Assembly (NCBI GenBank): GCA_016218825.1
Contig: JACRCV010000121.1
Span: 1 to 64,000 of the forward strand
Length of the DNA: 64,000 bases
Origin: Deltaproteobacteria bacterium
Lineage (GTDB): Bacteria; Myxococcota; XYA12-FULL-58-9
Direction of reading: 5' to 3'
The notes beneath the pieces are model-generated. The model made no database searches and was not told where the DNA came from. It was given only the letters and a program-made list of their open reading frames with translations. The position numbers and the translations under genes were made by a program. The stretch's first letter is position 1. Every line of letters begins with the position of its first letter. Positions 5,301 to 53,189 of this stretch are shown here, piece by piece.

Positions 5301-7879
5301 ACGCCTGGATAGAAGTACCCGCCGGTCACGGTCATCGTCAGCGCCTTGTTCGCGCTCGGTAGCCCCGCAGGGTCCGTCTGCACTATCGCCGGCTGCGCTC
5401 GCCTCACAGGAACCACCCGGCTCGTGGACGCCGTCGCACCGGTCGACAGATCTGTGTTGGTCAACGTGAGCGTCACCGACCCCACGTCCGGCAGCACACC
5501 GCCGTCCACCCGGATACCGATGCGCGTCAGGCCACCCGCGGTGTCGTCGCGCCAGGCGACCGCGAGCGGGATCCCCCCGAGGTCCACACCCGTCCCTTCC
5601 GCCAGGCCGCTACCGGTCACGACCAGATCTACCGGCGACTGATACTGTGAGTGACGTGGCAGGCTCGAGGGAGCCACGGTCTGGATGACCGGAGGCGACA
5701 GAGCCACCGTCACCGGTTGCGCGGTCGCGCGCGCGAAGGAGCTGTAGGTCAGATCTTCCACCTCCACCACCGGGGCGTAGGTGCCCGCCGACCGATACCT
5801 GACGCCGGCCAGTCCCGCGGTGGAGCCGAACGCAGTGTCCCAGACGCCATCACCGTCGGTATCGAACCGAAAGCGCAGCTCCTGAGCGACGGCACGCGAC
5901 CGAGACTGAGACGCGTCGAGCTTGAACGACGTGTCGACCGTCCCGCTGCCCGGATCGACCACCAGCGCCGGCACCGGCGCCGGGGGCACGTTCACGCACT
6001 CGGCAATCGGTACCTTGTTGCAGCTACAAGGGCCCGGCTCCGCGGAGGTGGCCCAGCCACTCTTCCGGCAATAGGGGTGGGAATCGACGGCGTCGCCCCG
6101 GTTCGTGTCCACTCCGGCTACAAACAGCGGCCCGGCGACGAAGTCACCCGCCGGAGTGAAGCCGCGCCCCCACCAGTTGCCCAGGCCGTATCGTGACAGC
6201 TCCAGCGGTCCGGACTCCGAGATCCACTCGTACGCCGAGAACACCAGGTCGTTGTCATAGAGGTCACTCCACCAAGCCGCCGGCCGTTCCTCGAGCGGCA
6301 GGCTGGTCCAATCGCCCTTCACCAGCACGCCGCCTCGCGAGAGCCCGGTGAGCTCGGTCTCCTGCACGGTGAGCCACCGACCCGGCGCGTCCCGATACGA
6401 CATCACGATGCCGTACGCGTCACCGGTTAGGTTACTGTCTTTGACCAGGCAGGCCTCCGATGAGTCGATCCAGATGTTCGCCGACGCGAACCTCGGGTCA
6501 CTCGGCGGGCTCACATTCAACGCCGACCCGCCAATCCCGATCTCGCGGCTCTGGACGATCAGCACCGCCACCCGGTTGGCCTTGTTGATCGGCGTGCCGG
6601 CGGCATCAAGATTGTCCAACCGCATCTGGTAGGCGCCGCGAAGCTCGATCGCGCCGTCGGTCGAGAGCGACGTCACCTGCCCGCCTGGCCGACCCGCGGC
6701 GGTGTCGGCGAGAGCCAGCCCGAACTCGAAGCCGCGGACGCTGCAGTGCTCCACGTTGGCCCGCGTAGGGCCGGTCCAGGTGATGCCTACGGCCGATTCG
6801 GGGGAGAACGGGCCGCGAACTTCGTAGCCCTGGCAGTTGAGCGTGATGCCGTCTGTGAGCTCGATCGCCTCGCCGACGTTGGCGTCGAGGTAGCAGGTGC
6901 TGCCGGCGAAGTGAGCCGGCGGCGTCTCCGTGGGGATCTGGCACCCGCCGTTCGTCAACTCTCCCCCCTTGCACGAGCATGCGTCCCGGATCACGCGGGT
7001 GGAGGGCCGCCGGTGAAGGTAGAAGTGGGTCGCACCCTCTGGAGAAAACGAAACCGTGCCCGAAGATCCAACCTCGACGACCTGCGCCTCTCGGTCGAAG
7101 TCGTCACGGTATAGGAACCAGCGCTCGCCTTGCGCCAATCCGTCGAGCCACACGTCTCCTCGTGGCGGCGCGCCGGCGGCCAGGTGCAGCCGCGAATCAG
7201 CAGTGCGGAACCAGAGGCCACTCGATCCGGCAGCAGTCGCTCGGATCCCTCCATGCTCAACCACGTCACCGTCCACCTCGGCGAACGGCGCCTCGACCTG
7301 CCCGACTCCGAACGGTGAGAGGTGCCGCGTCATCGCCCACGTGCCGGAGCTATCCTGCTGCGAGCCAGAGACGGGGCCGAACTGGCCGCCGACCCGGGTC
7401 ATGATGACGTCCTGTCCCCGCTTCGACCGGCTTCGATAAGCGACATGCACCCGCACCGGCCGCAAGAAGCGAAACCCCGTCGGCCCGATCTCGAACCACG
7501 GCCCCGAGAACCCCTCGACCTCCGGCGTCGGCATCCGACTCAACGTCAAGCCGACGACTTCACCCACCGCGCCCGGCGGCACGCTCAGCGTCAACTCGCC
7601 AAGCTGGAACTCGCCACCCTCGGGCCCCACCCGCACCGACGAAGTGTCGCCGAAACCCGGCACGCTCAGGGCTGCGTCCCGACACCCACTCCCCGCGAGA
7701 CCCACCAAGAGCGAGAGCAGAAGCGAGCTGAGCGCCCAGCGCCCGATACCGCGGCGCAAACACTCGGCGCGCCTGGCGAGGACCGCAGGCGGATGCGGCC
7801 GAGAAGCCGCGCACAGCGGCCAACGCGCGCCGGTTGAAATGTAGGCAGGTTCCGCGAGCACGGCGGCGCCGAGGACCAC
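2333..7879 (-). CDS. Giant mosaic lipoprotein with beta-helix, PKD, IPT/TIG and calcineurin-like phosphoesterase domains
   Basis: Up to 1,848 residues. A lipobox LAGSGC ends near residue 66 of the longest frame, which opens with GTG and has no clear ribosome site. A TTG around 7759 (residue 41) would give a normal-length lipoprotein leader, so the start is uncertain. Reading on: a ZU5-like segment (about 75-150), a right-handed beta-helix-like region (about 310-560), a PKD-like domain (about 640-730), IPT/TIG-like repeats (about 735-1150), then a metallophosphoesterase domain (about 1340-1680). Visible metal-site motifs are GDISD near 1406, GNHD near 1443, MMHN near 1552 and GHSGEH near 1595. 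The first motif reads SDVAW instead of the usual DxH. Probably a surface phosphatase or phosphodiesterase; the substrate is unknown. First gene of a coupled three-gene operon. Confidence 0.8.
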   Translation of the reverse strand: MVLGAAVLAEPAYISTGARWPLCAASRPHPPAVLARRAECLRRGIGRWALSSLLLSLLVGLAGSGCRDAALSVPGFGDTSSVRVGPEGGEFQLGELTLSVPPGAVGEVVGLTLSRMPTPEVEGFSGPWFEIGPTGFRFLRPVRVHVAYRSRSKRGQDVIMTRVGGQFGPVSGSQQDSSGTWAMTRHLSPFGVGQVEAPFAEVDGDVVEHGGIRATAAGSSGLWFRTADSRLHLAAGAPPRGDVWLDGLAQGERWFLYRDDFDREAQVVEVGSSGTVSFSPEGATHFYLHRRPSTRVIRDACSCKGGELTNGGCQIPTETPPAHFAGSTCYLDANVGEAIELTDGITLNCQGYEVRGPFSPESAVGITWTGPTRANVEHCSVRGFEFGLALADTAAGRPGGQVTSLSTDGAIELRGAYQMRLDNLDAAGTPINKANRVAVLIVQSREIGIGGSALNVSPPSDPRFASANIWIDSSEACLVKDSNLTGDAYGIVMSYRDAPGRWLTVQETELTGLSRGGVLVKGDWTSLPLEERPAAWWSDLYDNDLVFSAYEWISESGPLELSRYGLGNWWGRGFTPAGDFVAGPLFVAGVDTNRGDAVDSHPYCRKSGWATSAEPGPCSCNKVPIAECVNVPPAPVPALVVDPGSGTVDTSFKLDASQSRSRAVAQELRFRFDTDGDGVWDTAFGSTAGLAGVRYRSAGTYAPVVEVEDLTYSSFARATAQPVTVALSPPVIQTVAPSSLPRHSQYQSPVDLVVTGSGLAEGTGVDLGGIPLAVAWRDDTAGGLTRIGIRVDGGVLPDVGSVTLTLTNTDLSTGATASTSRVVPVRRAQPAIVQTDPAGLPSANKALTMTVTGGYFYPGVTRVAFEAAHAAGGVPEVFEMTNFSIDADEEHLTVAVPELLFDDSYGAGSVLYFLADNFASNNHETWARHQLIFEAAPRVPAIEMVRDIRLLSEEWQFDADTTNDPVKLLVNVTDPESGMQLLVKSFHTGDSQVFEMIRIYGVANEQAECTRHGGVRLLDLFDGMVVVRAAYGGSRAWSHALPVWPQYPSPGVTTVTPNALRARPNTAAIGPQYVTVVGDNLFTDTRARVIRGGIVAGATVVSRTVPSELVVEIPGWATASFTPTPWGGPMDQILATANITIELSTDSEPLAPDAPPANPFAVSRVPRDVIYLGEHGERCDRCMPPFGDDEDAQIEGAHLTDVLDNTRHHNLGASVYSWWDDGGELQTRILWWSHARPQCYAMAHTVAAGYATMPTSRDAYFPDPTSSLDIEGLTAGTARRYEWNLNTHAAFVADLPGPLEPGQIHAYQVYCTEGTSGDWSDWETVASADAYFRTPDRPQTRRQSATQFAVVSDVAWCSQHQHDGDWIGFKCDSDIPTSAHKHKLNQWRVANTLQHYFYRGAVDFVLGAGDISDSYNDVWTYYGRVFPFFAPVMAGVPFFPIHGNHDIGLDKPGYDMNSEKFFNVFTMPTHDPRYHAYLCNPSYSSQFYGFSHGQVSVAAFDYPEDRTDVRELGFSWLQKTCLEPTYEAPGQWRWIRDTLPSLAARSPWVFGMMHNQFQNDCYSRPEFCGLLGLGAEIYPGSRDPSGGIDILVSGHSGEHANNKVRAADGGSIPASGRSYAPEWSQFSGTCKGDYGFANGACVMDDGFMHYTVTPERVVARRVDIGTGVDESESGDPNVNYMPRGYVTGCWVVEKEVFPAQGWNGDPAAVFDPARDCWPDLLDPRRFQEALGDKTLEPFALNSYAVGLEGLLPGLDDRTRFPSQPGRAFLTPCGTIGDTFPMERFAGDLDDPLHDFPLETSCTECSCVGDVCNRVKRYVVRNRTAPGTTDPWAVETFIPELDALCEVLP

Positions 7880-41452: not shown

Positions 41453-41761
41453 ATGCGTAGCGTTAACGCACTGAAAGTACGGACGAAGTTCGGCGAGGTG
41501 ATGGACGAGCTGAACGAGACCGGCGAGCCGATCTTGCTGAGGCGGGGGTCGAAGGTAGAGGCGGCGCTGGTCCCGATCGCGTTGTTTCGCGAGCGCTTCG
41601 TCGATGCTCTGAGCCAGGACGAGCTGCGGGCGGTTCGGGAGCGCGTACGAACGCGGCGGGTCCGACCGAAGGGCGACCTGTCGACGCTCGCGACGTTGCG
41701 CCGCCTGCGCGGGTACGACGATCAGGATGGCCCGGCGCCGGGCGCGAAGCGCGAGCGATGA
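41453..41761 (+). CDS. Phd/YefM-family antitoxin
   Basis: 102 residues from the ATG at 41453. The start MRSVNALKVRTKFGEVMDELNE with GEPILLRRGSKVEAALVPI is the Phd/YefM fold (beta-hairpin DNA-binding half). The C-terminal half is charged and probably wraps the toxin. The gene overlaps the PIN toxin start as ATGA. The promoter and inverted repeat immediately upstream point to autorepression, as is usual for the family. There is no room for a ribosome site if transcription starts at the predicted position, so translation would be leaderless. Confidence 0.85.
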   Translation: MRSVNALKVRTKFGEVMDELNETGEPILLRRGSKVEAALVPIALFRERFVDALSQDELRAVRERVRTRRVRPKGDLSTLATLRRLRGYDDQDGPAPGAKRER

Positions 41762-42165
41762 AACCGGCGGTCCTCGACGCGTCGGTCGCCGTCAAGTGGT
41801 TCCTCGAGGAGCCGGGCGCGGACGTCGCCGACCGCGTGCTGGACGATATCTACAGCGGCGCGCGCGAGCACCTGGTGCCGGAGCTGTTCTTCTTCGAGGT
41901 CCTCGCGGTTTGCCTGCGCCGCCACCCGAAGCCCCGAGACTTCGCCGCGACCGACATGCCGTACTTGCTCGCGCTGCCGATCACTCGGGCCCAGATGACC
42001 GCCGCGCTCACTCGCGGTGCCGCCGAGCTCGTCGAAGCCGGCCTCTCCGGCTGCGACGCCGCCTACGCCGCCCTCGCCCGCGAGGTCGACGGCGAGTGGC
42101 TGACCTTCGATGAGAAAGCCGCCGGCCTCCTCCAGAATCCGGCCTGGGTCCGCGTCCTCGCGTAG
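41758..42165 (+). CDS. PIN-domain ribonuclease toxin
   Basis: 135 residues. PIN acidic residues are in place: Asp in AVLDASVAVKWF (residue 7), Glu in FFFEVLAVCL (about 46), Asp in GCDAAYAALA (about 101) and Asp in TFDEKAAG (about 119). PIN toxins cleave RNA with Mg2+ and are held inactive by the partner antitoxin. Here the partner is a Phd-type protein rather than the more usual VapB. The coding end runs straight into copy B of the 69-bp repeat, whose first two bases are part of the TAG stop. Confidence 0.88.
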   Translation: MKPAVLDASVAVKWFLEEPGADVADRVLDDIYSGAREHLVPELFFFEVLAVCLRRHPKPRDFAATDMPYLLALPITRAQMTAALTRGAAELVEAGLSGCDAAYAALAREVDGEWLTFDEKAAGLLQNPAWVRVLA

Positions 42166-42272: not shown

Positions 42273-42519
42273 GCTAAGAACGCAGATCCAGGTCTCCGAG
42301 GGCTTGTACGAGCGCCTGCGTCGTCTCGCGAAGGAACAGGACCGCTCGATCGCCGAGTGCATCCGCGACGGGATCGAGTGGGCGGTGAGGAGCGCCAGCA
42401 TGCCAGGCGGCCGCATCGAAGACATCGCCGGCAAGTTCCGGCCGCAACCGCACGATGACCTGAAGCCACACGACCAGGGCTTCATCGACACCGCGGCGAA
42501 AGCAGGGCGACGACCGTGA
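42271..42519 (+). CDS. Ribbon-helix-helix (VapB-like) antitoxin
   Basis: 82 residues. The N-terminus TQIQVSEGLYERLRRLAKEQ then SIAECIRDGIEWAV is a ribbon-helix-helix DNA-binding fold. A charged C-terminal tail probably blocks the toxin. The GTG of the toxin overlaps its stop (GTGA). The palindrome over its own promoter indicates autorepression. If transcription begins at the predicted base the message is leaderless. Confidence 0.85.
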   Translation: MLRTQIQVSEGLYERLRRLAKEQDRSIAECIRDGIEWAVRSASMPGGRIEDIAGKFRPQPHDDLKPHDQGFIDTAAKAGRRP

Positions 42520-42914
42520 CGGTGGTGTTCGTCGACACCTCCGGCGCGTACGCGCTGTTGGATGGCACCGATGCGATCCACCCGGCGGTCAAGAACGCCT
42601 TCCTGCGCGCCGAGCACGAGCATCACTCGCTGCTCACCACCAGCTATGTTCTGCACGAGTCCTGGGCGCTCATCCAGGCCCGGCTCGGTTGGGAGGCCCT
42701 GAATGCCTGGCACGACAAGCTGGTGCCGAAGCTCGACGTGATCTGGGTCGACGAACGACTGCACGCGCTCGGCGCGGCCCGCTGCCGCCAGGCTCGCGAG
42801 CGCCGACTCAGCCTCACCGACTGTATCTCCCTCGAGGTGATGCACGCACGAGGCATCGAGACCTTCATCGGTGCCGACGAGCATTTCGAGCGCGACGGCT
42901 TCCGGCCGTACTAG
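42516..42914 (+). CDS. PIN-domain (VapC-like) ribonuclease toxin
   Basis: 132 residues from a GTG. Acidic PIN residues are present: Asp in VFVDTSGAYALLD (residue 7), Glu in VLHESWALIQ (about 48), Asp in SLTDCISLEVM (about 100) and Asp in GADEHFERDGF (about 118). The sequence resembles the VapC subgroup with the LTDCxSxxxM motif. Coupled to its ribbon-helix-helix antitoxin. It differs strongly from the first module's PIN protein, so the two modules are not tandem duplicates. Confidence 0.9.
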   Translation: MTVVFVDTSGAYALLDGTDAIHPAVKNAFLRAEHEHHSLLTTSYVLHESWALIQARLGWEALNAWHDKLVPKLDVIWVDERLHALGAARCRQARERRLSLTDCISLEVMHARGIETFIGADEHFERDGFRPY

Positions 42915-43115: not shown

Positions 43116-43508
43116 ATGACCAAGACCGTGAAGCTCACCGAGGCAAACTTCGAGACCCAGGGGCTCGGCCAGAACGGCAAGCCGATCCTCATCGACTTCT
43201 GGGCGTCTTGGTGCGGACCGTGTCGGGCGATGGAGCCGGTGTTGGAGTCGCTCGCGACCGAGCTCGAAGGCCAGGCGGTCATCGCCAAGGTGAACGTCGA
43301 CGAAGAGCCGGCGCTCGCGAACGGCGCCCGGATCCAGTCGATCCCGACGATGCTGTTGCTGAAGGACGGCCAGGTCAAAGAGGTGTTCGTCGGCGTCACC
43401 AGCAAGAGCGCGCTGCGCGCCGCCCTCGTCAAGCACATGCAGGCGGGGTCCGGGACCACCGCGGTCCAAGCCGCGAGCCTTGCATCTGCCGGCGCCGTGC
43501 CGCATTGA
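43116..43508 (+). CDS. trxA: Thioredoxin
   Basis: 130 residues from an ATG with AGGAGG five bases upstream. The active site WCGPC is near residues 31-35 (DFWASWCGPC), with the cis-Pro segment SIPTMLLLKDG near 74. It reduces protein disulfides using thioredoxin reductase. The length is slightly over the usual 105-110 because of an Ala/Ser/Gly-rich tail from about residue 108. No leader peptide, so cytoplasmic. A small FmdB-type zinc-ribbon gene follows 21 bases on. Confidence 0.95.
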   Translation: MTKTVKLTEANFETQGLGQNGKPILIDFWASWCGPCRAMEPVLESLATELEGQAVIAKVNVDEEPALANGARIQSIPTMLLLKDGQVKEVFVGVTSKSALRAALVKHMQAGSGTTAVQAASLASAGAVPH

Positions 43509-43529: not shown

Positions 43530-43748
43530 ATGCCGGTCTACGAATACGTCTGTGAGAGCTGCGGCACGCGCTTCGATCTGCAACGCAAGGTCGCCGAACG
43601 CAACGACAAGGCCGGCTGCCCGTCGTGTGGCAAGGCAGGCAAACGTGAGCTGTCGGGGTTCGCGGTCTCCGGCGGTGGTAGCGGTGGCGGCCGGGCCTTC
43701 GCACCGCTAAGGTCGGCGCCGTCCTCCTGCGCCTCCGGTGGCGGCTGA
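43530..43748 (+). CDS. FmdB-family zinc-ribbon protein
   Basis: 72 residues. The sequence MPVYEYVCESCGTRFDL with a second CPSCGK gives the CxxC...CxxC zinc ribbon of the FmdB/putative regulatory family. A Gly/Ser-rich tail with a final Cys follows. The family's role is uncertain; the original FmdB was proposed as a regulator. It is probably co-transcribed with trxA. Confidence 0.9.
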   Translation: MPVYEYVCESCGTRFDLQRKVAERNDKAGCPSCGKAGKRELSGFAVSGGGSGGGRAFAPLRSAPSSCASGGG

Positions 43749-43783: not shown

Positions 43784-45571
43784 TCACTGACTCTCCAGAA
43801 CCCGCTTGATCGCGGTCAGCCGTTCTTGGAGCTTCTCGCGGCCGCCGCAGTCCTCCATCTTCTTCACGGCGAGCGGCGTCAAGAACTCGCGGTCGGTGCA
43901 CTCGATGATCGCCGCGAGCTCCTGCAGCTCGCGCTCCAGGCTCTGGGTCGACGGCATGAAGCCGGCCACCACCTCGGTGAGGATGTCGCGGCTGATGTGG
44001 TCCTTGCCGGCGAGCAGCGCCTGGCGCCAGGCGCGCCCCACCAGCCCCTCGATGTCGGCCCCGGACAGGTGCCCCTTGTGGGGGATCTCCGGCACGTCGT
44101 CGGCGGCGAGCTTGGCGTCGAGCTTCTTGGCGACGTTGACGAAGAAGGTGCGGATCTCGGCCGGGTCGTAGGGATAGAACAACGGGATGTGGACCTCGGC
44201 CCGCCCCTGACGCTTCAGATCGATCGGCAGCAGATCCGGGCGCGCCGTCATCAACACCCAGACGATGCGACCGCGATAGCGGCTGTCGCCCATCTGCGCC
44301 GCGATCATGCCGAACACCCGCGAGCCGACCCCGGAGTCGCCGCCGGTCTGCCGGTCGCCGAGCATCGCGTCGGCCTCGTCGACGATCACCATCACCGGCC
44401 CCATCGAGCGCAGCACCCCCAGCACCCGCTCGAGGTTGGCCTCGGTCTCGCCGACGTACTTGGAACGGAAGTTCTTCAGCATCACGCAGGGCATGCCGAT
44501 GGAGCCGGCGGCGCACTGGGCGAGGAATGACTTGCCGGTGCCGACCGGGCCGCAGAACAGATAGCCCATCGGCGCGCAGTCGAGGGCACCGCGCTGGATG
44601 AGGAGGGCGTCGTCCTTGAGCCGCTTCTTCGCCGCCTCGTGGCCGACGACCATGTCGAGGGTCCACTTGGGCTCGATGAACTCCAGCAGGTCCTGCGCCT
44701 GGCGCTCGATCAAGCGCTTCTTCAGCTCGCGAAAGCGCACGCTGTCGAGCCGGCGCTTGGCCTCGATGCTCGACTTCACCAAGGTATCGAGGTCGGTGAG
44801 CGAAATGCCGGCGGTGAGCTTGGCGATCTCGGGGACACCGTAGTCCGAGAAGCTCGCCACCTCGCGGTCGCCGACCATCGTCTCGAGGAAGGCCCGGCGC
44901 TCCTCGTCGTCGGGGAGCGGGACGTCGAGGGTGGCGACGTGGAGGTTCGCGGTCAGGCGCTCCGCGACCTCGGAGAGCCTTGGATCGATGAGCAGGAACG
45001 CCAGGTTGTGGCGCTTGACGTAGGGGCTCGCGGCCCAGTTGATGAGCGTCACCAGGTGGGTCGAGGTCGCCGGCGTCAGGCGGTCGCCGCGCGGCACGAC
45101 GTACGACGCTTGATCGACGACCAGCGCCACGCTCAGGCGGTCCTTGTCGTCCGCCATCACGTTCCTGGTCACGAAGCGGTCGAGCACCGCGAGGGTCGCG
45201 GTCGGATCCTTGGGGATGGCGCTGAGGTCGCCGACCTTGCGATTCGCGAGGGCCACCATGGTCTTCAGGCGCTCGTCGCTGCGCCCCGCGAGACAGCGCA
45301 GGCCGCGCGCCAGGTCATAGTGCAGCACCAGATCCCAACGGCCGAAGAGCTGCTCGGCGACGAACTCCGCCAAGGTCCCGTAGCGTCGCTGCGGCAGGTC
45401 GGCGAGCATCACGTAGTCGAAGGTGTTGCCGCCGACGACGAACATCGACGTCGTGCCCGAGAAGTACAGCTCGGCGAGCTTCTTCGCCCAGCTCGGGAAC
45501 CACGCCGGCAGCTCGGCGGCGCCGGTCCCGGCCGCGCCTCGGGGATCGGTGGCGATGCTCTTGTCGGTCAT
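43784..45571 (-). CDS. AAA+ ATPase with degenerate N-terminal and active C-terminal module
   Basis: 595 residues from the ATG at 45571, with GGAG seven bases upstream. The C-terminal half has Walker A GPVGTGKS (341-348), Walker B VIVDEAD (395-401) and an Arg-rich sensor region (LKRQGRAEVHIPLFYP). The N-terminal half (about 45-300) looks like a P-loop-like fold that has lost its Walker A (VVGGNTFDYV) but keeps a Walker-B-like LVVDQAS. No membrane segment, so cytoplasmic. It ends a six-gene operon that starts with pspA. A remodelling ATPase acting on the PspA/ABC assembly, comparable to PspF or Vps4-like partners of PspA/ESCRT-III proteins, is an inference. Confidence 0.85.
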   Translation of the reverse strand: MTDKSIATDPRGAAGTGAAELPAWFPSWAKKLAELYFSGTTSMFVVGGNTFDYVMLADLPQRRYGTLAEFVAEQLFGRWDLVLHYDLARGLRCLAGRSDERLKTMVALANRKVGDLSAIPKDPTATLAVLDRFVTRNVMADDKDRLSVALVVDQASYVVPRGDRLTPATSTHLVTLINWAASPYVKRHNLAFLLIDPRLSEVAERLTANLHVATLDVPLPDDEERRAFLETMVGDREVASFSDYGVPEIAKLTAGISLTDLDTLVKSSIEAKRRLDSVRFRELKKRLIERQAQDLLEFIEPKWTLDMVVGHEAAKKRLKDDALLIQRGALDCAPMGYLFCGPVGTGKSFLAQCAAGSIGMPCVMLKNFRSKYVGETEANLERVLGVLRSMGPVMVIVDEADAMLGDRQTGGDSGVGSRVFGMIAAQMGDSRYRGRIVWVLMTARPDLLPIDLKRQGRAEVHIPLFYPYDPAEIRTFFVNVAKKLDAKLAADDVPEIPHKGHLSGADIEGLVGRAWRQALLAGKDHISRDILTEVVAGFMPSTQSLERELQELAAIIECTDREFLTPLAVKKMEDCGGREKLQERLTAIKRVLESQ

Positions 45572-45612
45572 GCTCGGTCTCCGTTCGTGCGCCGCGCAGA
45601 GCGACGCGGCCG

Positions 45613-46500
45613 TCAACCCACCCGCTCGAGATCGGCGTTCAGGATGCTCGGCGCCTCGGCGAGCTGGTCGTTCAAGCCGGTGATCTGATTGAGCTCGCGG
45701 ATCGCGTCCTCGGTGTGGGTCATGCTCGCGGCCACCGAGTCGACCTGCGACGAGATGTAGCCCGAGTCCTGGTGACTCACCGCCATCTCCGAGAGCGCCT
45801 GGATCTTGCCCTCGATGCGGTCGAGCTCCACCGCGACGAACTCGGCGTTCGACACCGCCTTGTCGTGGTTCTCGAGCCGGAGCTCGGAGGTGACGATCGA
45901 GTCCGAGAGCGACTTGACGATGCGCTCGTCGCTTTGCGCGCGCGCCTTGGCCTGCCGCGCCTTGAGCTCCTCGAGCCGCCGCCGCATGTCGCCGACGTCG
46001 GTCGAGGCGAGAAAGCGTTGCAGCGCCTGCTGCGAGTAGAGCAGGCGCAAGAACGACCACAGCAGGCGGTCGAGGGCCGGGGTCCGGATCTCGTCGGTCT
46101 TCGCGACGTCGGTGGTCTGGCCGCGCACCCCGGTGGCGATGCGCTGCATCTCGACGCAGCGGGCCCGGAGCGCCTCGAAGCGCTGCCGGCCTTTGGCGTC
46201 CAGGCCCTTCAGGAGCTGGCTGAGCGAGGCGGCCGGGGCGGTGGCGCTCGATCGGCCGGCCTTTTGCGCGGCGTACACCTTGGCGTCGATCGCGGCCCTG
46301 AAGCGCGGGATGCTCGTGAGCCCGGCGACGTACAACAGCTCGGCGGCCCCGAGCATCGGCAACAGCACGTCGGGGTACGGGCTCAACACCGCGGCGGCGG
46401 CGCCGCCCAAGAACAACAGCAGGTTCCAACGAAAGAGGACGGCCTCTTTGACGTAGTGCCACACCCCGGCCCCTTCTGCTGCGAGCCGCGGCTCAGTCAT
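45613..46500 (-). CDS. Membrane protein with coiled-coil domain
   Basis: 295 residues. Two hydrophobic segments lie at about 20-42 and 44-65 (LFRWNLLLFLGGAAAAVL, VLLPMLGAAELLYVAGL). The rest is strongly helical and charged with heptad-like patterns (about 100-290), e.g. RRLEELKARQAKARAQSDE and IVKSLSDSIVTSELRLENHD. It overlaps the ABC ATPase gene by eight bases (46493-46500), so translation is coupled. No named family is recognised. Its membrane anchor and cytoplasmic coiled coil suggest a docking partner for PspA or for the AAA+ ATPase encoded next. Confidence 0.78.
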   Translation of the reverse strand: MTEPRLAAEGAGVWHYVKEAVLFRWNLLLFLGGAAAAVLSPYPDVLLPMLGAAELLYVAGLTSIPRFRAAIDAKVYAAQKAGRSSATAPAASLSQLLKGLDAKGRQRFEALRARCVEMQRIATGVRGQTTDVAKTDEIRTPALDRLLWSFLRLLYSQQALQRFLASTDVGDMRRRLEELKARQAKARAQSDERIVKSLSDSIVTSELRLENHDKAVSNAEFVAVELDRIEGKIQALSEMAVSHQDSGYISSQVDSVAASMTHTEDAIRELNQITGLNDQLAEAPSILNADLERVG

Positions 46501-47356
46501 CGCCGGCCCGCTGGCTCGCCTCGAGGTTGGCGATCAGGTCGCGGATCTCGAAGACGGTGTCGAGGAACTTCTGCTCGCGCTGCATCTCTTTGGCCGGCCG
46601 GTCCGAGACCGGCACCCTCATCTCCTTCAACAGCGTGCCCGGTGAGGACGAGAAGATGTAGACCCGATCGCCCAGGTACACCGCCTCCTCGATGGAGTGG
46701 GTCACGAAGAAGACCGTGGCCTCCTGCTCGCGCCACAGCCTGACGATCAGATCCTGCATGTGCAGCCGCGTCGTCGGATCGAGGGCGCCGAAGGGCTCGT
46801 CCATCAAGATGATGCGCGGCTTCAAGATCAAGGTGCGGGCAATCGCCACCCGCTGCCGCATGCCGCCGGAGAGCTCGTGCGGGTACTTCTTGGCGTCGTG
46901 GCTGACCGACAGGCCGACCTTCTCGATCCACTCGCGCGAAAGCTTCAGGCGCTCGGCGGCGCCGACGCCGCGACACTCGAGGCCGAAGGCGATGTTGTCC
47001 TCGACGGTGCGGTGGTCGAAGGAGGTGTAGTCCTGAAACACCATGCCGCGGTCGGCGCCCGGGCCGCTGACCGGCTTGCCGAACACCAGCACCTCGCCGG
47101 CGGTCGCCGGAAACTGCGGCTTCAGACCCGCGATCAACCGCAGCACCGTCGACTTGCCGCAGCCGGAGGGCCCGAGCAGCGGGATGAACTCGCCCTTGCC
47201 GTGCAGATCTTCGACGGTGAAGGTCACGTCCTTGATCGCGGTGAAGCTCTTCCTTCCGACCCCGAAGCTCTTGGTCACCTTGGTGAACTGCACCACGTGC
47301 GGCCGCGCCGCGGCGTCGCCTTGGACCGGCACCGGGTTCCGCTGCGGCTCGCTCAT
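46493..47356 (-). CDS. ABC transporter ATP-binding protein (SsuB/TauB-like)
   Basis: 287 residues from the ATG at 47356, which overlaps the permease stop as ATGA. Walker A GPSGCGKS (62-69), Q-loop FQDYTSF (108-114), signature LSGGMRQR (162-169), Walker B IILMDE (182-187), D-loop GALD and H-loop His 220 are all intact, so it should hydrolyse ATP. The sequence is close in style to nitrate/sulfonate/taurine importer ATPases. It is embedded in the PspA/SBP-OmpA operon. Confidence 0.92.
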   Translation of the reverse strand: MSEPQRNPVPVQGDAAARPHVVQFTKVTKSFGVGRKSFTAIKDVTFTVEDLHGKGEFIPLLGPSGCGKSTVLRLIAGLKPQFPATAGEVLVFGKPVSGPGADRGMVFQDYTSFDHRTVEDNIAFGLECRGVGAAERLKLSREWIEKVGLSVSHDAKKYPHELSGGMRQRVAIARTLILKPRIILMDEPFGALDPTTRLHMQDLIVRLWREQEATVFFVTHSIEEAVYLGDRVYIFSSSPGTLLKEMRVPVSDRPAKEMQREQKFLDTVFEIRDLIANLEASQRAGDD

Positions 47357-48171
47357 ATGTCTTTCCGATACGGAAACAGGCCGCGCTGGAAGAACAACAG
47401 CGCGCGGTCGATGCCGTAGGCCAGGATTCCGATCATCAACAGCACCAGGAAGATGTGGTCGGTGTGACCGCGGCGCTGGCTCATCGACAGCAGGTAGCCG
47501 AGGCCGTACTTGGCGTTGATGAGCTCGGCCAGCATGATGTAGCCGAAGGCGATGCCGAACAGCGACCTCAAGCTCGTGAAGATCCCGGGGAGGGCGAGGG
47601 GCACCAGCACCTTGTAGACCACCTGCCAGGCCGAGGCCCCGAGCGTCTGCGCGGTCTCGACGTAGCGATCGTGGATCGACACCACCGCCGCCGCCGCGTC
47701 CGAGAACACGAAGGGCACGGTGGCGATGAAGATGAACATCACCTTCTGCGACTCGTCGATCCCGAACCACAAGATGGTGAGCGGGATCAACGCCGCGATC
47801 GGGATGTTGCGCGCCACGAGCACCAGCGGCGACAAGAACGCCGCCAGCGCCTTCCAGCTGCCGGCGGCCATCCCGAACGGCACCCCGATCACCACCGCGA
47901 GCAAGAAGCCGGAGAGCACCCGCCGCAAGGTGGCGAAGATCGCCGGCAACAGCGCCCCGTCGGCCATCAGGCTCTCGATGCTCGACAGCACCTCGAGCGG
48001 GCTCGGCAACAGCGTCGGTGACACCACCCGCTCTTCGGCCGCGCCCGCGGTCATCAGGAACCAGGCGCCGAACACCAGCAAGATCGCAGAGAGCCCCAGC
48101 GCCTTGCCGAGCACCGCCGGCAACGGCTGGCGCAGCGCGACCAGCTCGCCAAGCTGCGCGCCGAGCGTCAC
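47353..48171 (-). CDS. ABC transporter permease (SsuC/TauC-like)
   Basis: 272 residues with about six transmembrane segments. The EAA loop, GASAWQVVYKVLVPLALPGI, is where the ATPase docks. The family moves sulfonates, nitrate, taurine or related small anions inward. Start and stop overlap both neighbours by four bases. One permease gene implies a homodimer. The dedicated substrate-binding partner is the unusual OmpA fusion just upstream. Confidence 0.9.
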   Translation of the reverse strand: MTLGAQLGELVALRQPLPAVLGKALGLSAILLVFGAWFLMTAGAAEERVVSPTLLPSPLEVLSSIESLMADGALLPAIFATLRRVLSGFLLAVVIGVPFGMAAGSWKALAAFLSPLVLVARNIPIAALIPLTILWFGIDESQKVMFIFIATVPFVFSDAAAAVVSIHDRYVETAQTLGASAWQVVYKVLVPLALPGIFTSLRSLFGIAFGYIMLAELINAKYGLGYLLSMSQRRGHTDHIFLVLLMIGILAYGIDRALLFFQRGLFPYRKDI

Positions 48172-49913
48172 TGGGCCGACGCCGCCTCGAGCGGATAGAC
48201 CTTCACCTCCACCCGACGGTTCTTGGCGTGGTTCATGGGGTCGTTCGGATCGGCCGGCCGATCCCAGCCGATGCCCGCGGTCGCGAACTGGTTGGGCTGC
48301 AGCTTCTTGAACTTCTTCACCAGGCTCTCTTTGACCGCGCTGGCGCGGTTCATCGCCAGCTCCTTGACCAAGGTCGGCGGGATCTGGCCCTGCATCGAGC
48401 CGTCGGTGTGCCCCTCGATGACGATGCGCGCCGCGCCGTACTGGCCGGCGAGCTTGCCGACCTCTTCGACGACGAAGTCGACGTTCGGGTCGTAGAGCTC
48501 TTCTTTGTCTTTGCCGTCGACGTTGGTGGTGACCTTCTTGTAGAGGTCCCAGGAGTTCGGGAAGAAGTGGATGACGATGGTCTTGGTGAGGATCTCGTTC
48601 GACTCCGCCTGGATGCTGCCGGCCGACAGCGGCGTGAACCGGACCTCGTACTCGTCCTTCTGCTGGGCGTACTTCGGGATCTTGGCGAGCTTCTGGAGCA
48701 CGCCGAAGTCCACCACCTGGTCGAAGCTCACCTTGTTGCTGACCGCCGCCACCTTCTTATAAAGGAAGTAGCCGGTGTCGTAGGTGCGCTCGAAGTTCGT
48801 CGGGTTGTTGCGGTTCAAGAAGAACTCTTTGTTCTCGGCGAAGTTGGTCCAGTGGGCGTCGCCGAGCATCCCCAGCGCTTCCTGCTCGGCGATCGAGTAG
48901 CCCTTCGCCATCCACTTGGAGACCTTGGCTTTGCTCTCCTGGTCCTTGAGCTCGACCATCGCGTCGAAGATGCCGCGCACGATGCCCTCGACGATGTCCG
49001 CGTGGTCTTTGGCGAAGTCGGCGCGGACGAACCAGACGTCGGCGATCAGCTTGTTGGCGGTGGCGGTGGTGACGAGCAGCTTGTTGCCCTTGACCTTCTC
49101 GAGGTTGTAGATGTCCGGCGCCCAGCTGACGCAGCCGGCGATGCTCTTGTCGGCGTTGAACGCCGCCGCCGCCTGGAACGCGTCGCCGACGAACTTGAAA
49201 TTCACCTCGGCGGGCTGCACGCCGGCGTTGATGAGCGCGTTCAAGATGAAGAAGTGCGACGGCGAGTTCTGCGCCAAGACGATGGTCTTGCCGCGCAGGT
49301 CGCTCATCGTCGTGATGGTGTCACGCACCACGATGCCGTCGCCGCCGTTCGACCAGTCGATCTGCTGGTAGACGCGCGGCATCACCCGCGAGTCCTTCTG
49401 CAGGCCTTCGAGGAGCAGCGGCAGCATGTCGACCGTCGCCCAACCGACGTGGACGTTGCCGGCCGCGAACGAGTCGCGCATCCCGACCGGATCGTCGATC
49501 AGCACCAGCTCGACCTTGAAGGGCTTGCCGTTCGCGTCCTTCCACTGGTGCTGGGCGGCGAAGCCCTGGTTGGCGTAGATGATCGGCGCCCAGCCGGCCC
49601 AGACGTTGATCGCGAAGCGGACGGTGCGATCCTTCATCGGCTTGTAATTCGAGACCCCCTTCACCTCGGGCAGCTTCTGCGCCGGCAAGAAGTCGTACTC
49701 CTTCTTCGTGGTGATGCCGCCGGCGTCCGGGGCCTCGGCCTTCTGGCCGGTGACCTCCTGGAGCTCCTTGAGCGAGATCGGCTGGCTCTGGTCGCCCGTC
49801 ATCCCCGGCACGTTGTCGGGGCCGATGGCGCCGAAGCGCCACAGCGCAAAGCCGACGAGTCCGATCACGATCAAGAACATCACGACGTAGAATGCTGGCT
49901 TCGGGCCACCCAT
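48168..49913 (-). CDS. Membrane-anchored substrate-binding protein fused to OmpA peptidoglycan-binding domain
   Basis: 581 residues; ATG at 49913 with AGGAG seven bases upstream. A single transmembrane segment (7-27, FYVVMFLIVIGLVGFALW) replaces a cleavable signal. Residues about 85-400 form an NMT1/TauA-type periplasmic substrate-binding domain (INVWAGWAPIIYANQGF, FAAGNVHVGWATVDMLP, LAQNSPSHFF). Residues about 440-575 form an OmpA-like domain with IEGHTDG, NRASAVKESL and NRRVEV, the peptidoglycan-binding signature. The protein would tie an ABC importer in the inner membrane to the cell wall. A mechanical or envelope-sensing role is more likely than simple scavenging; this is inference. Confidence 0.88.
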   Translation of the reverse strand: MGGPKPAFYVVMFLIVIGLVGFALWRFGAIGPDNVPGMTGDQSQPISLKELQEVTGQKAEAPDAGGITTKKEYDFLPAQKLPEVKGVSNYKPMKDRTVRFAINVWAGWAPIIYANQGFAAQHQWKDANGKPFKVELVLIDDPVGMRDSFAAGNVHVGWATVDMLPLLLEGLQKDSRVMPRVYQQIDWSNGGDGIVVRDTITTMSDLRGKTIVLAQNSPSHFFILNALINAGVQPAEVNFKFVGDAFQAAAAFNADKSIAGCVSWAPDIYNLEKVKGNKLLVTTATANKLIADVWFVRADFAKDHADIVEGIVRGIFDAMVELKDQESKAKVSKWMAKGYSIAEQEALGMLGDAHWTNFAENKEFFLNRNNPTNFERTYDTGYFLYKKVAAVSNKVSFDQVVDFGVLQKLAKIPKYAQQKDEYEVRFTPLSAGSIQAESNEILTKTIVIHFFPNSWDLYKKVTTNVDGKDKEELYDPNVDFVVEEVGKLAGQYGAARIVIEGHTDGSMQGQIPPTLVKELAMNRASAVKESLVKKFKKLQPNQFATAGIGWDRPADPNDPMNHAKNRRVEVKVYPLEAASAQ

Positions 49914-49945
49914 GACGCGCTCCTGGTTGTTCGGGTATGGTCTCG

Positions 49946-50692
49946 CTAGTTGGACTGCTTCTCGGTCGCCGGGCCGAGGTTCTTGGCCGATTCGGTCGTG
50001 ACGGCGGTCTCGGGCGACTTCATGCCGAGCTCGACCTCGAGCTCCTTGAGCGCATCGTCCGCCATCACCTTCTCCATGCGCTCCTCGGCCTTGATGTCGG
50101 CGATCCCCTTGTGCGACAGGTCCGCGGCCACCCGCACCTTGCCGCGGTTGGTGTCGATCTTCGACTGGATCATGGTCTCGAGCTGGCCGAAGTCGGTGGT
50201 GACGTTCATCTCGAAGCCCTCGGCGAGCTTGGCGATTTCGGCCTCGGCCTCGCTCATCCGGAGCTCGGCGTCGTACTTCTGGATCTTCTCGCGCACGTCG
50301 ATGAGCTTCTTGTTGGCGTGCTGGATCTTCGTCAGGTTGTTCTGGTAGGCCTGCTCGTGCATCGAGAGCTGACCGCGGTTCTCTTCGAGCTCCCGCTTCG
50401 CCTTCTGCAGCTCGAGCGCGAACTTCGCGGCGGTGTCGCGATCGCCGGCCTTCAGGTAGGCCTTGGCCTGGGCCTCGAGCTTCTTGACGTGGGACTCGTT
50501 GTCGGTGACCTGACGGGTCACGCGCTCGACCAGGCCGCGGTACATCTCCAAGCCCTTGCGCCCCTCTTTGAGCTGCTCCACCGCCTTGTCGTACTCGTAG
50601 CGCATCTGGGCGATGGGATCGGCCTCCCAGAACATGTTGGCGACCTTGTTGAGCTGCGCCCTGAACGTCGACCACAACTTCTCGATGATCAT
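49946..50692 (-). CDS. pspA: PspA/IM30 family membrane-maintenance protein
   Basis: 248 residues from the ATG at 50692, with AAGGAG six bases upstream. A longer frame begins at 50719 but lacks such a site. The start IIEKLWSTFRAQLNKVANMFWEADP and the long helical body (RYEYDKAVEQLKEGRKGLEMYRG, AELRMSEAEAEIAKLAEGFE) match the PspA/IM30/ESCRT-III superfamily. The family polymerises on stressed inner membranes. It is the first gene of the six-gene operon, with a promoter candidate at 50760-50788. Confidence 0.88.
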   Translation of the reverse strand: MIIEKLWSTFRAQLNKVANMFWEADPIAQMRYEYDKAVEQLKEGRKGLEMYRGLVERVTRQVTDNESHVKKLEAQAKAYLKAGDRDTAAKFALELQKAKRELEENRGQLSMHEQAYQNNLTKIQHANKKLIDVREKIQKYDAELRMSEAEAEIAKLAEGFEMNVTTDFGQLETMIQSKIDTNRGKVRVAADLSHKGIADIKAEERMEKVMADDALKELEVELGMKSPETAVTTESAKNLGPATEKQSN

Positions 50693-50852: not shown

Positions 50853-53189
50853 ATGACGATACGACCGGTCGCGTGGCTCGTGGTGGTGTGGGTGTCGGGG
50901 TGCACGGTGCAGGTCCCCGACCCGGACCTCGCCAGGTTCGCCTGCAACGACAACCGCGACTGCGCCGGCGGCTACGCGTGCGTGGGTCAGGTCTGCGTGA
51001 AGGAGGGCGCCGGCACCAACCCCGGCGGCGACAACGGCCCAGGGTCCTGCTCCAACTGCTACTTCCCGAACGAGTGCAACGGCAGCGCCTGCGTGCCCGA
51101 CCCCGACGCCTGCACCGACGCCAACCGCACCGGCAGCTGCCGCGAGCCCGGCCTGGTCTGCAAGGACGGCTCGTGTTTCTACGCGGCCTCCGGCTGCGAC
51201 CCCACGGGGGCGAACGTCTGCGGCGATGGGTACTGCAAGGGCACGGCGCAGTGCCCCGACGGCAGCCCCTGCGCCCTCGGCACCAGCGACTGCCCGGCCA
51301 AGGCCGTCTGCCGCATCGTCGCCAGCTGCGCCCAGTGCTCGCCGAGCTGCGCGGTGTGGCAGTCGTGCACGTCGAACGGCTGCACTACCTTGTCGCCGCT
51401 CCCCGCCGCCGAGAGCTGCGCGCCGCCCGCCACCTGCCCCAACGCCAGACCGCAGTGCAACGCCTCTCGCGTCTGCGAACAGACCGGCTGCGGCGACTGT
51501 CCCTTCGGGCAGACCTGCCACAACGGCGGCTGCGTCTACGACCCGCGCGCTTGCTCCACGATCAACGACCACGGCTACTGCCCGGCCGGCACGACCTGCG
51601 TGACGTCGGGCATCGTCACCAATTGCCAGGCGGCGTGCATCCCGCGCACCTTCGTGGCCGCTGACGGCGCCGCCTACTCCGACTGCTACTACCCCTGCAG
51701 CGACGACTCCCAGTGCACCGGCGCTGCCTGCGTCTTCGACCCCGGGATCTCGACGATCCAGAAGGTCTGCCGGATGCACTGCAGCGCCGACACCGACTGC
51801 GCGGCTGCCGGCCTCAACGGCATGGTGTGTCGCTACGTCAGCACCGCCGACAGCGCGAGCGGCTGGCGCCCCGGCGGCACCACGATCCGCGCCTGCGTCG
51901 AGAGCAACGAGCGCGACTGCTCGATGGACGGCGCCCGCCCGGCGTGGTTCGCGGCGCAGGAGGCCGCCGATACCTGCACCCTGCCGTGCAGCGTCGCCGA
52001 CCTGGGCAAAGAGACCCTGCTCAAGACCCTGTCCCCGGGGAGCATCAAGGACCTCAGCCTGAAGAACGGCGTCGCCGCGTTCACGAACGTCAACGGCACG
52101 TCGTCGTCGGTTGACCTGCAGCCGCTCGTCCATTCGGGCGGGCCGTGCACCAACCTCGCGCTCGCATCGGGCAACCTGTCGCGGGCGAAGCTGGTCTACG
52201 ACACGACCAGCAACGCCTACCTCGCCTACCTGTGCAACGCGCCCGCCGCCGGCAGCTTCTGTCGGACGAGCGCCGCCGCCGGCAACTGGTACGTCCTCAC
52301 CGACCGGCTCACTACGGAGGCGAGCGGCTGCTTCTCCGTCGCCAGCAGCTCCTCGGTGAGCGCCGTTGCCCTCCCTCCGGCGGGGGTGATCGACTTCGCG
52401 GCGAGCGACGCCGGTGCCGTCGTCAGCGTGCACCGCGGCAACTCACCGTTCAGCTACTTCCTGACCACCCTGGTGCCGGCGCCCAACCCGACCGCCAACG
52501 ACCTGGCGCTCAGCTCGATGGGCTACACCCAGCTCGCCGAAGGCAAGCTCGGCGTTTCGCGGGACCTCGTGTTCTACACCAGGTTGAACACCGGACTCAG
52601 CTTCCCGAACAACCGGCTCTTTCGCACCACGGTCAATCGGTCGACGCCGGCGGTCGTCATGGATCCCAGTCCCGCTCCCGCCACGATCTGCAACATCGCC
52701 GCCACCCGTGACCGGGTGGTGTGGACCCAGCTCGCACCGGGAGGCACCTGCATCGCCGTGGGCGACCAACACGACGTCTACGTGGCAGAAGCGCCGGACT
52801 TCAGCGACGTCCAACTGATCGGCACGACCCCGAGCGGCTCCACCGAGCCGGTCATCATGGCGGCCTCGGGCTCGGTCGTCCTTTGGGCGGTGCGCGACGC
52901 TTCGGGCTCGTTCGAGCTCCGCGCCCTCGACCGCACCAACTGCGACATGCAGATGAATCCAACGATCCGAAGCTACGTGACGATCGCCTCTCGCCAGGCC
53001 ACCCCGAGCGGCTACTGCCCCAACAACGCCACCGCGCCGAACACCTACTGGGTGCTGAAGGACTTCGCGATCCAGTCCGACGAGCGCGGCGGGCTCACCC
53101 TCGCGTACGCCGCCGAGTGCCACTCCGGCGGCAGCGCGACCGGCCCGATCCAGGGCACCTACGTCTTCGGCCGCCGGCTGTTCCCGTGA
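50853..53189 (+). CDS. Cys-rich lipoprotein with beta-rich C-terminal half
   Basis: 778 residues from the ATG at 50853, with GGGAGG eleven bases upstream. Leader IRPVAWLVVVWVSGC (lipobox VSGC). Residues about 25-390 are Cys-rich modules (CNDNRDCAGGYAC, CSADTDCAAAG). The remainder has few Cys and looks like a beta-propeller-type or sugar-binding fold of repeated strands. It is divergent from the pspA operon, so they share a control region of about 160 bases. The function is unknown. Confidence 0.78.
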   Translation: MTIRPVAWLVVVWVSGCTVQVPDPDLARFACNDNRDCAGGYACVGQVCVKEGAGTNPGGDNGPGSCSNCYFPNECNGSACVPDPDACTDANRTGSCREPGLVCKDGSCFYAASGCDPTGANVCGDGYCKGTAQCPDGSPCALGTSDCPAKAVCRIVASCAQCSPSCAVWQSCTSNGCTTLSPLPAAESCAPPATCPNARPQCNASRVCEQTGCGDCPFGQTCHNGGCVYDPRACSTINDHGYCPAGTTCVTSGIVTNCQAACIPRTFVAADGAAYSDCYYPCSDDSQCTGAACVFDPGISTIQKVCRMHCSADTDCAAAGLNGMVCRYVSTADSASGWRPGGTTIRACVESNERDCSMDGARPAWFAAQEAADTCTLPCSVADLGKETLLKTLSPGSIKDLSLKNGVAAFTNVNGTSSSVDLQPLVHSGGPCTNLALASGNLSRAKLVYDTTSNAYLAYLCNAPAAGSFCRTSAAAGNWYVLTDRLTTEASGCFSVASSSSVSAVALPPAGVIDFAASDAGAVVSVHRGNSPFSYFLTTLVPAPNPTANDLALSSMGYTQLAEGKLGVSRDLVFYTRLNTGLSFPNNRLFRTTVNRSTPAVVMDPSPAPATICNIAATRDRVVWTQLAPGGTCIAVGDQHDVYVAEAPDFSDVQLIGTTPSGSTEPVIMAASGSVVLWAVRDASGSFELRALDRTNCDMQMNPTIRSYVTIASRQATPSGYCPNNATAPNTYWVLKDFAIQSDERGGLTLAYAAECHSGGSATGPIQGTYVFGRRLFP

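Follow-up and report, generated by a model that had tools for sequence, protein, structure and literature searches.

An operon joining PspA and a p97-like AAA+ ATPase to an exchangeable envelope ABC module

The 64,000-nucleotide stretch analysed here (the window: positions 1 to 64,000 of contig JACRCV010000121.1, assembly GCA_016218825.1, from a deltaproteobacterium placed in Myxococcota) carries six intact open reading frames (ORFs) on the minus strand between positions 43784 and 50692. They encode, in this order, PspA, a substrate-binding protein (SBP) fused to an OmpA domain (SBP-OmpA), the permease and the ATPase of an ATP-binding cassette (ABC) importer, a membrane coiled-coil protein and an AAA+ ATPase (Table 1). 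We propose, with a probability of roughly 0.55, that this operon is a PspA assembly-and-recycling unit, devoted to polymer turnover and linked to an ABC module of the envelope. The operon looks more like a PspA recycling unit than a nutrient importer because, among its relatives, the transporter type is swapped while PspA and the AAA+ ATPase stay. The host genome amounts to 6.5 Mb in 121 contigs, and its closest database relatives are metagenome-assembled genomes (MAGs) of Myxococcota. Read from PspA to AAA+, the successive junctions are a gap of 32 bases, overlaps of 4, 4 and 8 bases and a gap of 41 bases; the ORF coordinates thus confirm the six-gene unit that an earlier, sequence-only reading of the window had described, with its order, overlaps (4-8 bases) and gaps (32-41 bases).

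A scan of genome contigs carrying SBP-OmpA yielded 27 loci, 16 of which have the complete set with gene order and strand preserved, which excludes a chance arrangement and favours the proposed unit. The remaining loci are mostly broken by contig ends or represent cases of splitting, loss or exchange. The 16 complete loci belong to records titled Myxococcota, Myxococcales, Deltaproteobacteria, Kofleriaceae, Acidobacteria, Bryobacteraceae, Terriglobia and Proteobacteria, and the six-gene order is recurrent in Myxococcota, Acidobacteria and some planctomycete genomes. The search for conserved gene order advocated by the sequence-only reading therefore did find PspA, SBP-OmpA, ABC and AAA+ genes together outside the window.

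The most constant association within the operon is that of PspA with the AAA+ ATPase. Among 146 evenly sampled Myxococcota genomes (AAA+ called at E ≤ 1e-60, counts ignoring relatedness, so that a Fisher value computed from them is no true probability), PspA is present in all 92 genomes bearing the AAA+ gene, compared with 23 of the 54 genomes without it. Where the two are linked, the arrangement is invariable: 74 of 93 AAA+ genes in this sample have a PspA gene no more than 16 kb away on the same strand, and in every case it lies upstream (for this count, the PspA coordinate of genome G041 is a tblastn match and that of the window comes from a separate search). The implication of PspA by AAA+, together with this fixed orientation and uncorrected for relatedness, argues for the proposed unit. 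Some of the 19 exceptions stem from contig ends, as in genome G036, where the operon is broken between two contigs (C34 and C142).

The same association is seen in planctomycetes, where the set is frequently split yet PspA and AAA+ tend to be adjacent even when the transporter genes lie elsewhere, a further point in favour of the recycling unit. In a further sample of planctomycete AAA+ loci, in which three pair members were verified as PspA by Pfam, the full set is present at L135 and L138, whereas four loci (L134, L140, L143 and L145) consist of a bare PspA–AAA+ pair; L146 reads PspA–coiled coil–AAA+ and L132 coiled coil–AAA+. These data, with the Myxococcota counts, support the earlier suggestion that PspA and AAA+ are partners in one unit. 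They also bear on another reading, in which the AAA+ ATPase would remodel the coiled-coil protein or the ABC complex and PspA would be a downstream responder. The coiled-coil gene does adjoin AAA+ in the window and at L132 and L146, and the coiled-coil protein likewise has a conserved C-terminal tail; but no coiled-coil gene was detected near the four bare pairs, and we consider this reading very improbable.

Other planctomycetes carry a lone SBP-OmpA locus (L035, L037 and others), with the ATPase and coiled coil at a second locus of the same genome and PspA followed directly by AAA+ at a third. No permease match was detected beside the ATPase of these split sets. Loss of partners in the SBP-OmpA-only genomes (L035 and others) was rejected, since ATPase and coiled coil, and PspA and AAA+, are found elsewhere in them. 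A partial set occurs at L040 (genomes G043/G066), where SBP-OmpA, permease, ATPase and coiled coil are present without this PspA and AAA+, and the genome carries two generic PspA proteins. Because such split and partial sets occur, the system is modular, with two separable parts: one comprises PspA and AAA+, the other the transporter, SBP and coiled coil. The idea of a single composite machine thus stands as a partnership and fails as an obligate six-part assembly, and the genomic half of what the sequence-only reading had named as fatal to it (an SBP-OmpA/ABC set lacking PspA and AAA+ genes and performing ordinary uptake) is found at L040.

The transporter itself is exchanged in one family of genomes (f13), to judge by phylum and genome size probably Myxococcaceae and their relatives, mostly 5–13 Mb in size and, as the window genome, nearly all with a single PspA found. 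Their operon begins with PspA, an SBP without detected OmpA domain, the coiled coil and a 551-aa lipoprotein-like protein, and continues with a LolD-type ATPase (scoring 234 bits against TIGR02211, under the cut-off of that model) and an FtsX/LolC-like permease (PF02687). A protein of 259 aa and a Ser/Thr kinase containing PEGA repeats follow, and AAA+ comes last. A few members are without SBP or without coiled coil (L114, L118 and L119). Both versions coexist in genome G129, one contig carrying PspA–SBP–coiled coil–LolD–FtsX and another SBP-OmpA–permease–ATPase–coiled coil; one AAA+ gene lies beside a kinase on a third contig. In this family, the importer-type ABC is replaced by a LolCD/FtsX-type one while PspA, SBP, coiled coil and AAA+ remain; an ABC of the LolCDE/MacB mechanotransmission type, absent from the window operon, here fills the ABC position. 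That the ABC type changes while PspA and AAA+ stay constant argues for a transporter that serves as envelope input or as client and not as a nutrient pump, in keeping with the earlier view that the operon is not obviously one for ordinary nutrient uptake.

The exchanged genes lend themselves to yet another interpretation, namely that the ABC core shuttles a lipid or lipoprotein of the envelope between the membrane and a carrier tethered to the wall, with PspA–AAA+ repairing the perturbed membrane. The LolD-like ATPase and FtsX/LolC-like permease would fit such trafficking, as would the lipid remodelling of the PspA family; against it, NCBIfam and profile searches returned no lipid-handling relatives of the importer-type permease or of the TauA-type SBP, and scores stay below the Lol equivalog cut-offs, making this role decidedly unlikely. 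Several genes of the Myxococcaceae-type version deserve mention. The 551-aa lipoprotein-like protein (L092 11744-13396 and relatives) is conserved, adjoins the LolD-type ATPase and has no Pfam family. The PEGA-repeat kinase (L092 6337-8886) lies directly upstream of AAA+ in most of these operons, and kinase-like genes adjoin AAA+ also at L126 and L127, without PspA nearby.

The transporter of the window itself retains all the features of an ABC importer. The ATPase shows the Walker A (GPSGCGKS), signature (LSGGMR) and Walker B (IILMDEP) motifs, and the permease an EAA-like loop (TLGAS...PLALP). SBP-OmpA combines a binding domain of the TauA/SsuA/NMT1 kind with a C-terminal OmpA peptidoglycan-binding domain, as seen from profile matches to TauA and Omp38 structures. 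The OmpA domain (PF00691, 38 bits for a cut-off of 27.2) contains GHTD and NRRVE, and its peptidoglycan-binding motif is conserved over 22 sequences. By hydropathy and motifs, the N terminus is a hydrophobic segment without lipobox, of the inner-membrane anchor type. These features, and the occurrence of transporter genes and coiled coil without a dedicated PspA/AAA+ at L040, would suit an ordinary TauABC/SsuABC-like importer of small organic anions, with PspA, coiled coil and AAA+ co-transcribed only through joint induction with envelope stress. SBP, permease and ATPase are indeed of the same type as in TauABC, SsuABC and NtrABCD. However, the window SBP is membrane-anchored and OmpA-fused, the operon partners are others, and scores lie far under the NCBIfam equivalog cut-offs (TauB, 205 versus 357 bits; TauC, 128 versus 342; TauA, 51.6 versus 490), none being reached for taurine, sulfonate or nitrate uptake; the best models for the permease, SaoP and TauC, are both under theirs. 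In an ordinary nutrient importer, the SBP typically evolves fast and is usually the least conserved component. SBP-OmpA, by contrast, is as conserved as the ATPase across the six-gene loci (∼61–84% versus 64–82% identity to the window, with permease, AAA+ and coiled coil below both), which favours the recycling unit over nutrient uptake. Taken with the LolCD/FtsX-type version, this evidence renders an ordinary importer unlikely. The earlier argument that an anchored SBP is ill-suited to substrate capture carries little weight, tethered SBPs being common. At one locus (L039), the ATPase match (4891-5988) falls in two pieces, reflecting an apparent insertion or an assembly problem in the MAG.

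The AAA+ protein has features that recall a threading motor. Its AlphaFold2 (AF2) model (pLDDT 83.5) aligns over nearly its full length with the tandem AAA domains of p97 and Rix7, the Foldseek alignment with p97 covering ∼570 columns (E 2e-19). The first AAA domain lacks GxxxxGK[ST], and the single Walker A of the protein is found at residue 341. The second domain is intact, with Walker A (GPVGTGKS), Walker B (VIVDEAD), an RQGR motif, two arginine-finger positions and an invariant K-Y-V-G pore loop of the aromatic-hydrophobic-glycine type found in threading unfoldases. This active second site, the pore loop and the p97-like tandem fold all favour the proposed unit. With the first AAA domain beginning at about residue 27, there is no room for a p97-type N-domain; the window protein therefore resembles Cdc48/p97 in its two tandem AAA domains but differs in having neither an active first domain nor an N-terminal substrate-recognition domain. 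Membership of the Vps4 group was rejected: Pfam gave no match to an MIT domain, the AAA domains are in tandem and not single, and the CdvC model scores 42 bits for a cut-off of 650. The ABC, AAA+ Walker and OmpA peptidoglycan motifs that the sequence-only reading had called intact were all located, although its account of the AAA+ protein, right as to the Walker motifs, had missed the tandem architecture and the N-terminal domain devoid of P-loop.

PspA, the presumed substrate of this motor, matches PF04012 over the whole domain (residues 1–219; 42.1 bits for a cut-off of 33.9), and the operon copy is the sole PspA detected in the host genome. Beyond the domain, a variable linker leads to a conserved C-terminal motif. 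In the window type this is K-x-LGP, with one exception among 25 orthologues including planctomycetes; the Myxococcaceae type has KT(I/L)GKK, again with a single exception, among 18 sequences. In ESCRT-III proteins, C-terminal tails mediate recruitment to Vps4; by this analogy, the PspA tail may be a putative recognition element for AAA+, and its conservation after a variable linker in both lineages favours the proposed unit. PspA is also shared with the canonical Psp system (pspFABC), but PspC has no match anywhere in the host genome, and Psp partners are absent from the scanned neighbouring genes (PspB and PspF were not searched genome-wide). The upstream region of the operon contains no sigma-54-like site, matches across the window being at chance level, and no sigma-70-like promoter was found in it. 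Canonical Psp regulation was rejected on the lack of PspC and of such upstream sequences, and the presence of one PspA without PspC is a further point for the proposed unit.

The membrane coiled-coil protein is the least classifiable of the six. A 20-sequence alignment and an all-helical AF2 model (pLDDT 80.8) point to an N-terminal hydrophobic helical hairpin (∼24–63) followed by long helices, and the C-terminal tail is conserved as P-x-(I/L)-L. Among 20 members of this family, no Snf7 match is listed in Pfam at E 1. A paralogous relationship with PspA is not supported by profile comparison (probability 0.1%), and a fold search of the PDB gave weak matches only, which include CdvB2 and BAR proteins and never fall below E 0.001. 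Three loci (L084, L085 and L131) have two coiled-coil genes instead of one.

We infer from these observations the following scheme. PspA, a member of the ESCRT-III superfamily, would polymerize on the inner face of the cytoplasmic membrane wherever this is strained or damaged. The p97-like ATPase, whose first ring is dead and whose second is active, would engage PspA, probably through its conserved C-terminal tail, and thread it through the pore, driving polymer turnover. SBP-OmpA, which is held by its inner-membrane anchor and grips peptidoglycan, may sense a small ligand, the spacing between membrane and wall, or both, and the ABC core and coiled-coil protein could relay its state inward to the PspA–AAA+ pair. 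Alternatively, the pair may service the membrane around the ABC complex, which would then be a client. A bolder version is a tentative possibility: a bacterial counterpart of the ESCRT-III/Vps4 cycle with another motor, in which the p97-like ATPase would read a short C-terminal tag of PspA and thread it from polymers under the control of an envelope-sensing ABC of importer or LolCD type. The likeness lies in an ESCRT-III superfamily polymer protein encoded beside an AAA+ ATPase with a threading-type pore loop, and the difference in the motor, which is tandem with a dead first domain, closest to Cdc48/p97 and not to Vps4/CdvC, and without MIT. ESCRT systems with vps4 have been described as limited to archaea and eukaryotes (PMC10936438).

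Several points weigh against a PspA recycling unit. The partnership of the products is read from their genes and not from physical contact between them; for 19 of the 93 AAA+ genes no PspA lies nearby, in some cases owing to contig ends; and L040 has the transporter set without this PspA/AAA+. Sensor 1 of the AAA+ protein is TARPD and so differs from that of p97, usually TNRPD, and the PspA tail motif could have another role. In addition, membrane remodelling by PspA polymers proceeds in vitro with no AAA+ present (PMC11746142). The same source treats the disassembly factor of PspA as an open question, with chaperones or a Vps4-like PspF only speculated upon, which leaves a place for the ATPase proposed here.

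Operons of this kind have already been described, for example that of OGG56892.1, in section 18 of Ravi et al. 2024 (PMC11237479). The content given there is the same (PspA, a Snf7 homologue with a transmembrane segment, an AAA+ protein whose N-terminal copy is inactive, the ABC ATPase and permease, and SBP-OmpA), and so is the idea, ATP-dependent membrane remodelling coupled to solute transport; the composite-machine proposal is hence already published in outline, in nearly the same form. The Snf7 homologue of that paper is apparently our coiled-coil protein, for which Snf7 kinship was not recovered here. The paper also cites a PspA–Snf7 neighbourhood of a deltaproteobacterium (AKJ06548.1), perhaps the Myxococcaceae-type version with exchanged ABC. 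In the passages of it that were searched, we found no description of the importer-to-LolCD-type exchange, of lone planctomycete PspA–AAA+ pairs or of the PspA tail motifs. The present analysis adds the modular make-up of the system, the swap of one ABC type for another and a hypothesis on AAA+ and PspA that can be tested directly: a conserved, linked AAA+ ATPase with a threading-type pore loop, whose most constant partner is PspA, makes the question of PspA disassembly accessible to experiment. The exchange points to myxobacteria, for which laboratory genetics exist; a literature search on PspA function in Myxococcus found nothing relevant.

The coordinates of the six genes are given in Table 1. 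Five of the six products pass curated Pfam cut-offs (PspA_IM30, OmpA, Phosphonate-bd/NMT1, BPD_transp_1, ABC_tran and AAA), the coiled-coil protein being the exception.

Table 1. Genes of the PspA–AAA+ operon, with positions in the window.
Product	Position	Strand	Length	Family matches
PspA/IM30 family protein	49946-50692	-	248 aa	PF04012
SBP-OmpA fusion	48168-49913	-	581 aa	PF12974, PF09084, PF00691 above cut-offs
ABC importer permease, TauC/SsuC/NtrB kind	47353-48171	-	272 aa	PF00528, 71 bits
ABC importer ATPase, TauB/SsuB/NtrCD kind	46493-47356	-	287 aa	PF00005, 97 bits
Membrane coiled-coil protein	45613-46500	-	295 aa	No Pfam or NCBIfam family
Tandem AAA+ ATPase, Cdc48/p97-like	43784-45571	-	595 aa	PF00004, 75 bits

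On the PspA side, the operon is flanked by a divergent gene on the plus strand (50853-53189) for a cysteine-rich, lipoprotein-like protein of 778 aa without Pfam family, which begins ∼160 bases from the PspA start and has a common upstream region with the operon. On the AAA+ side, a small plus-strand ORF (43530-43745, end approximate) that starts with MPVYEYVCESCGTRFDLQRKVAERNDKAGCPSCG and resembles, by eye, an FmdB-like zinc ribbon is convergent with the operon. Further plus-strand ORFs near the 3′ end of the operon, at 41758-42165, 42516-42914 and 43116-43508, encode two PIN-domain proteins and one thioredoxin, the two PIN-domain proteins being possible toxins of toxin–antitoxin systems.

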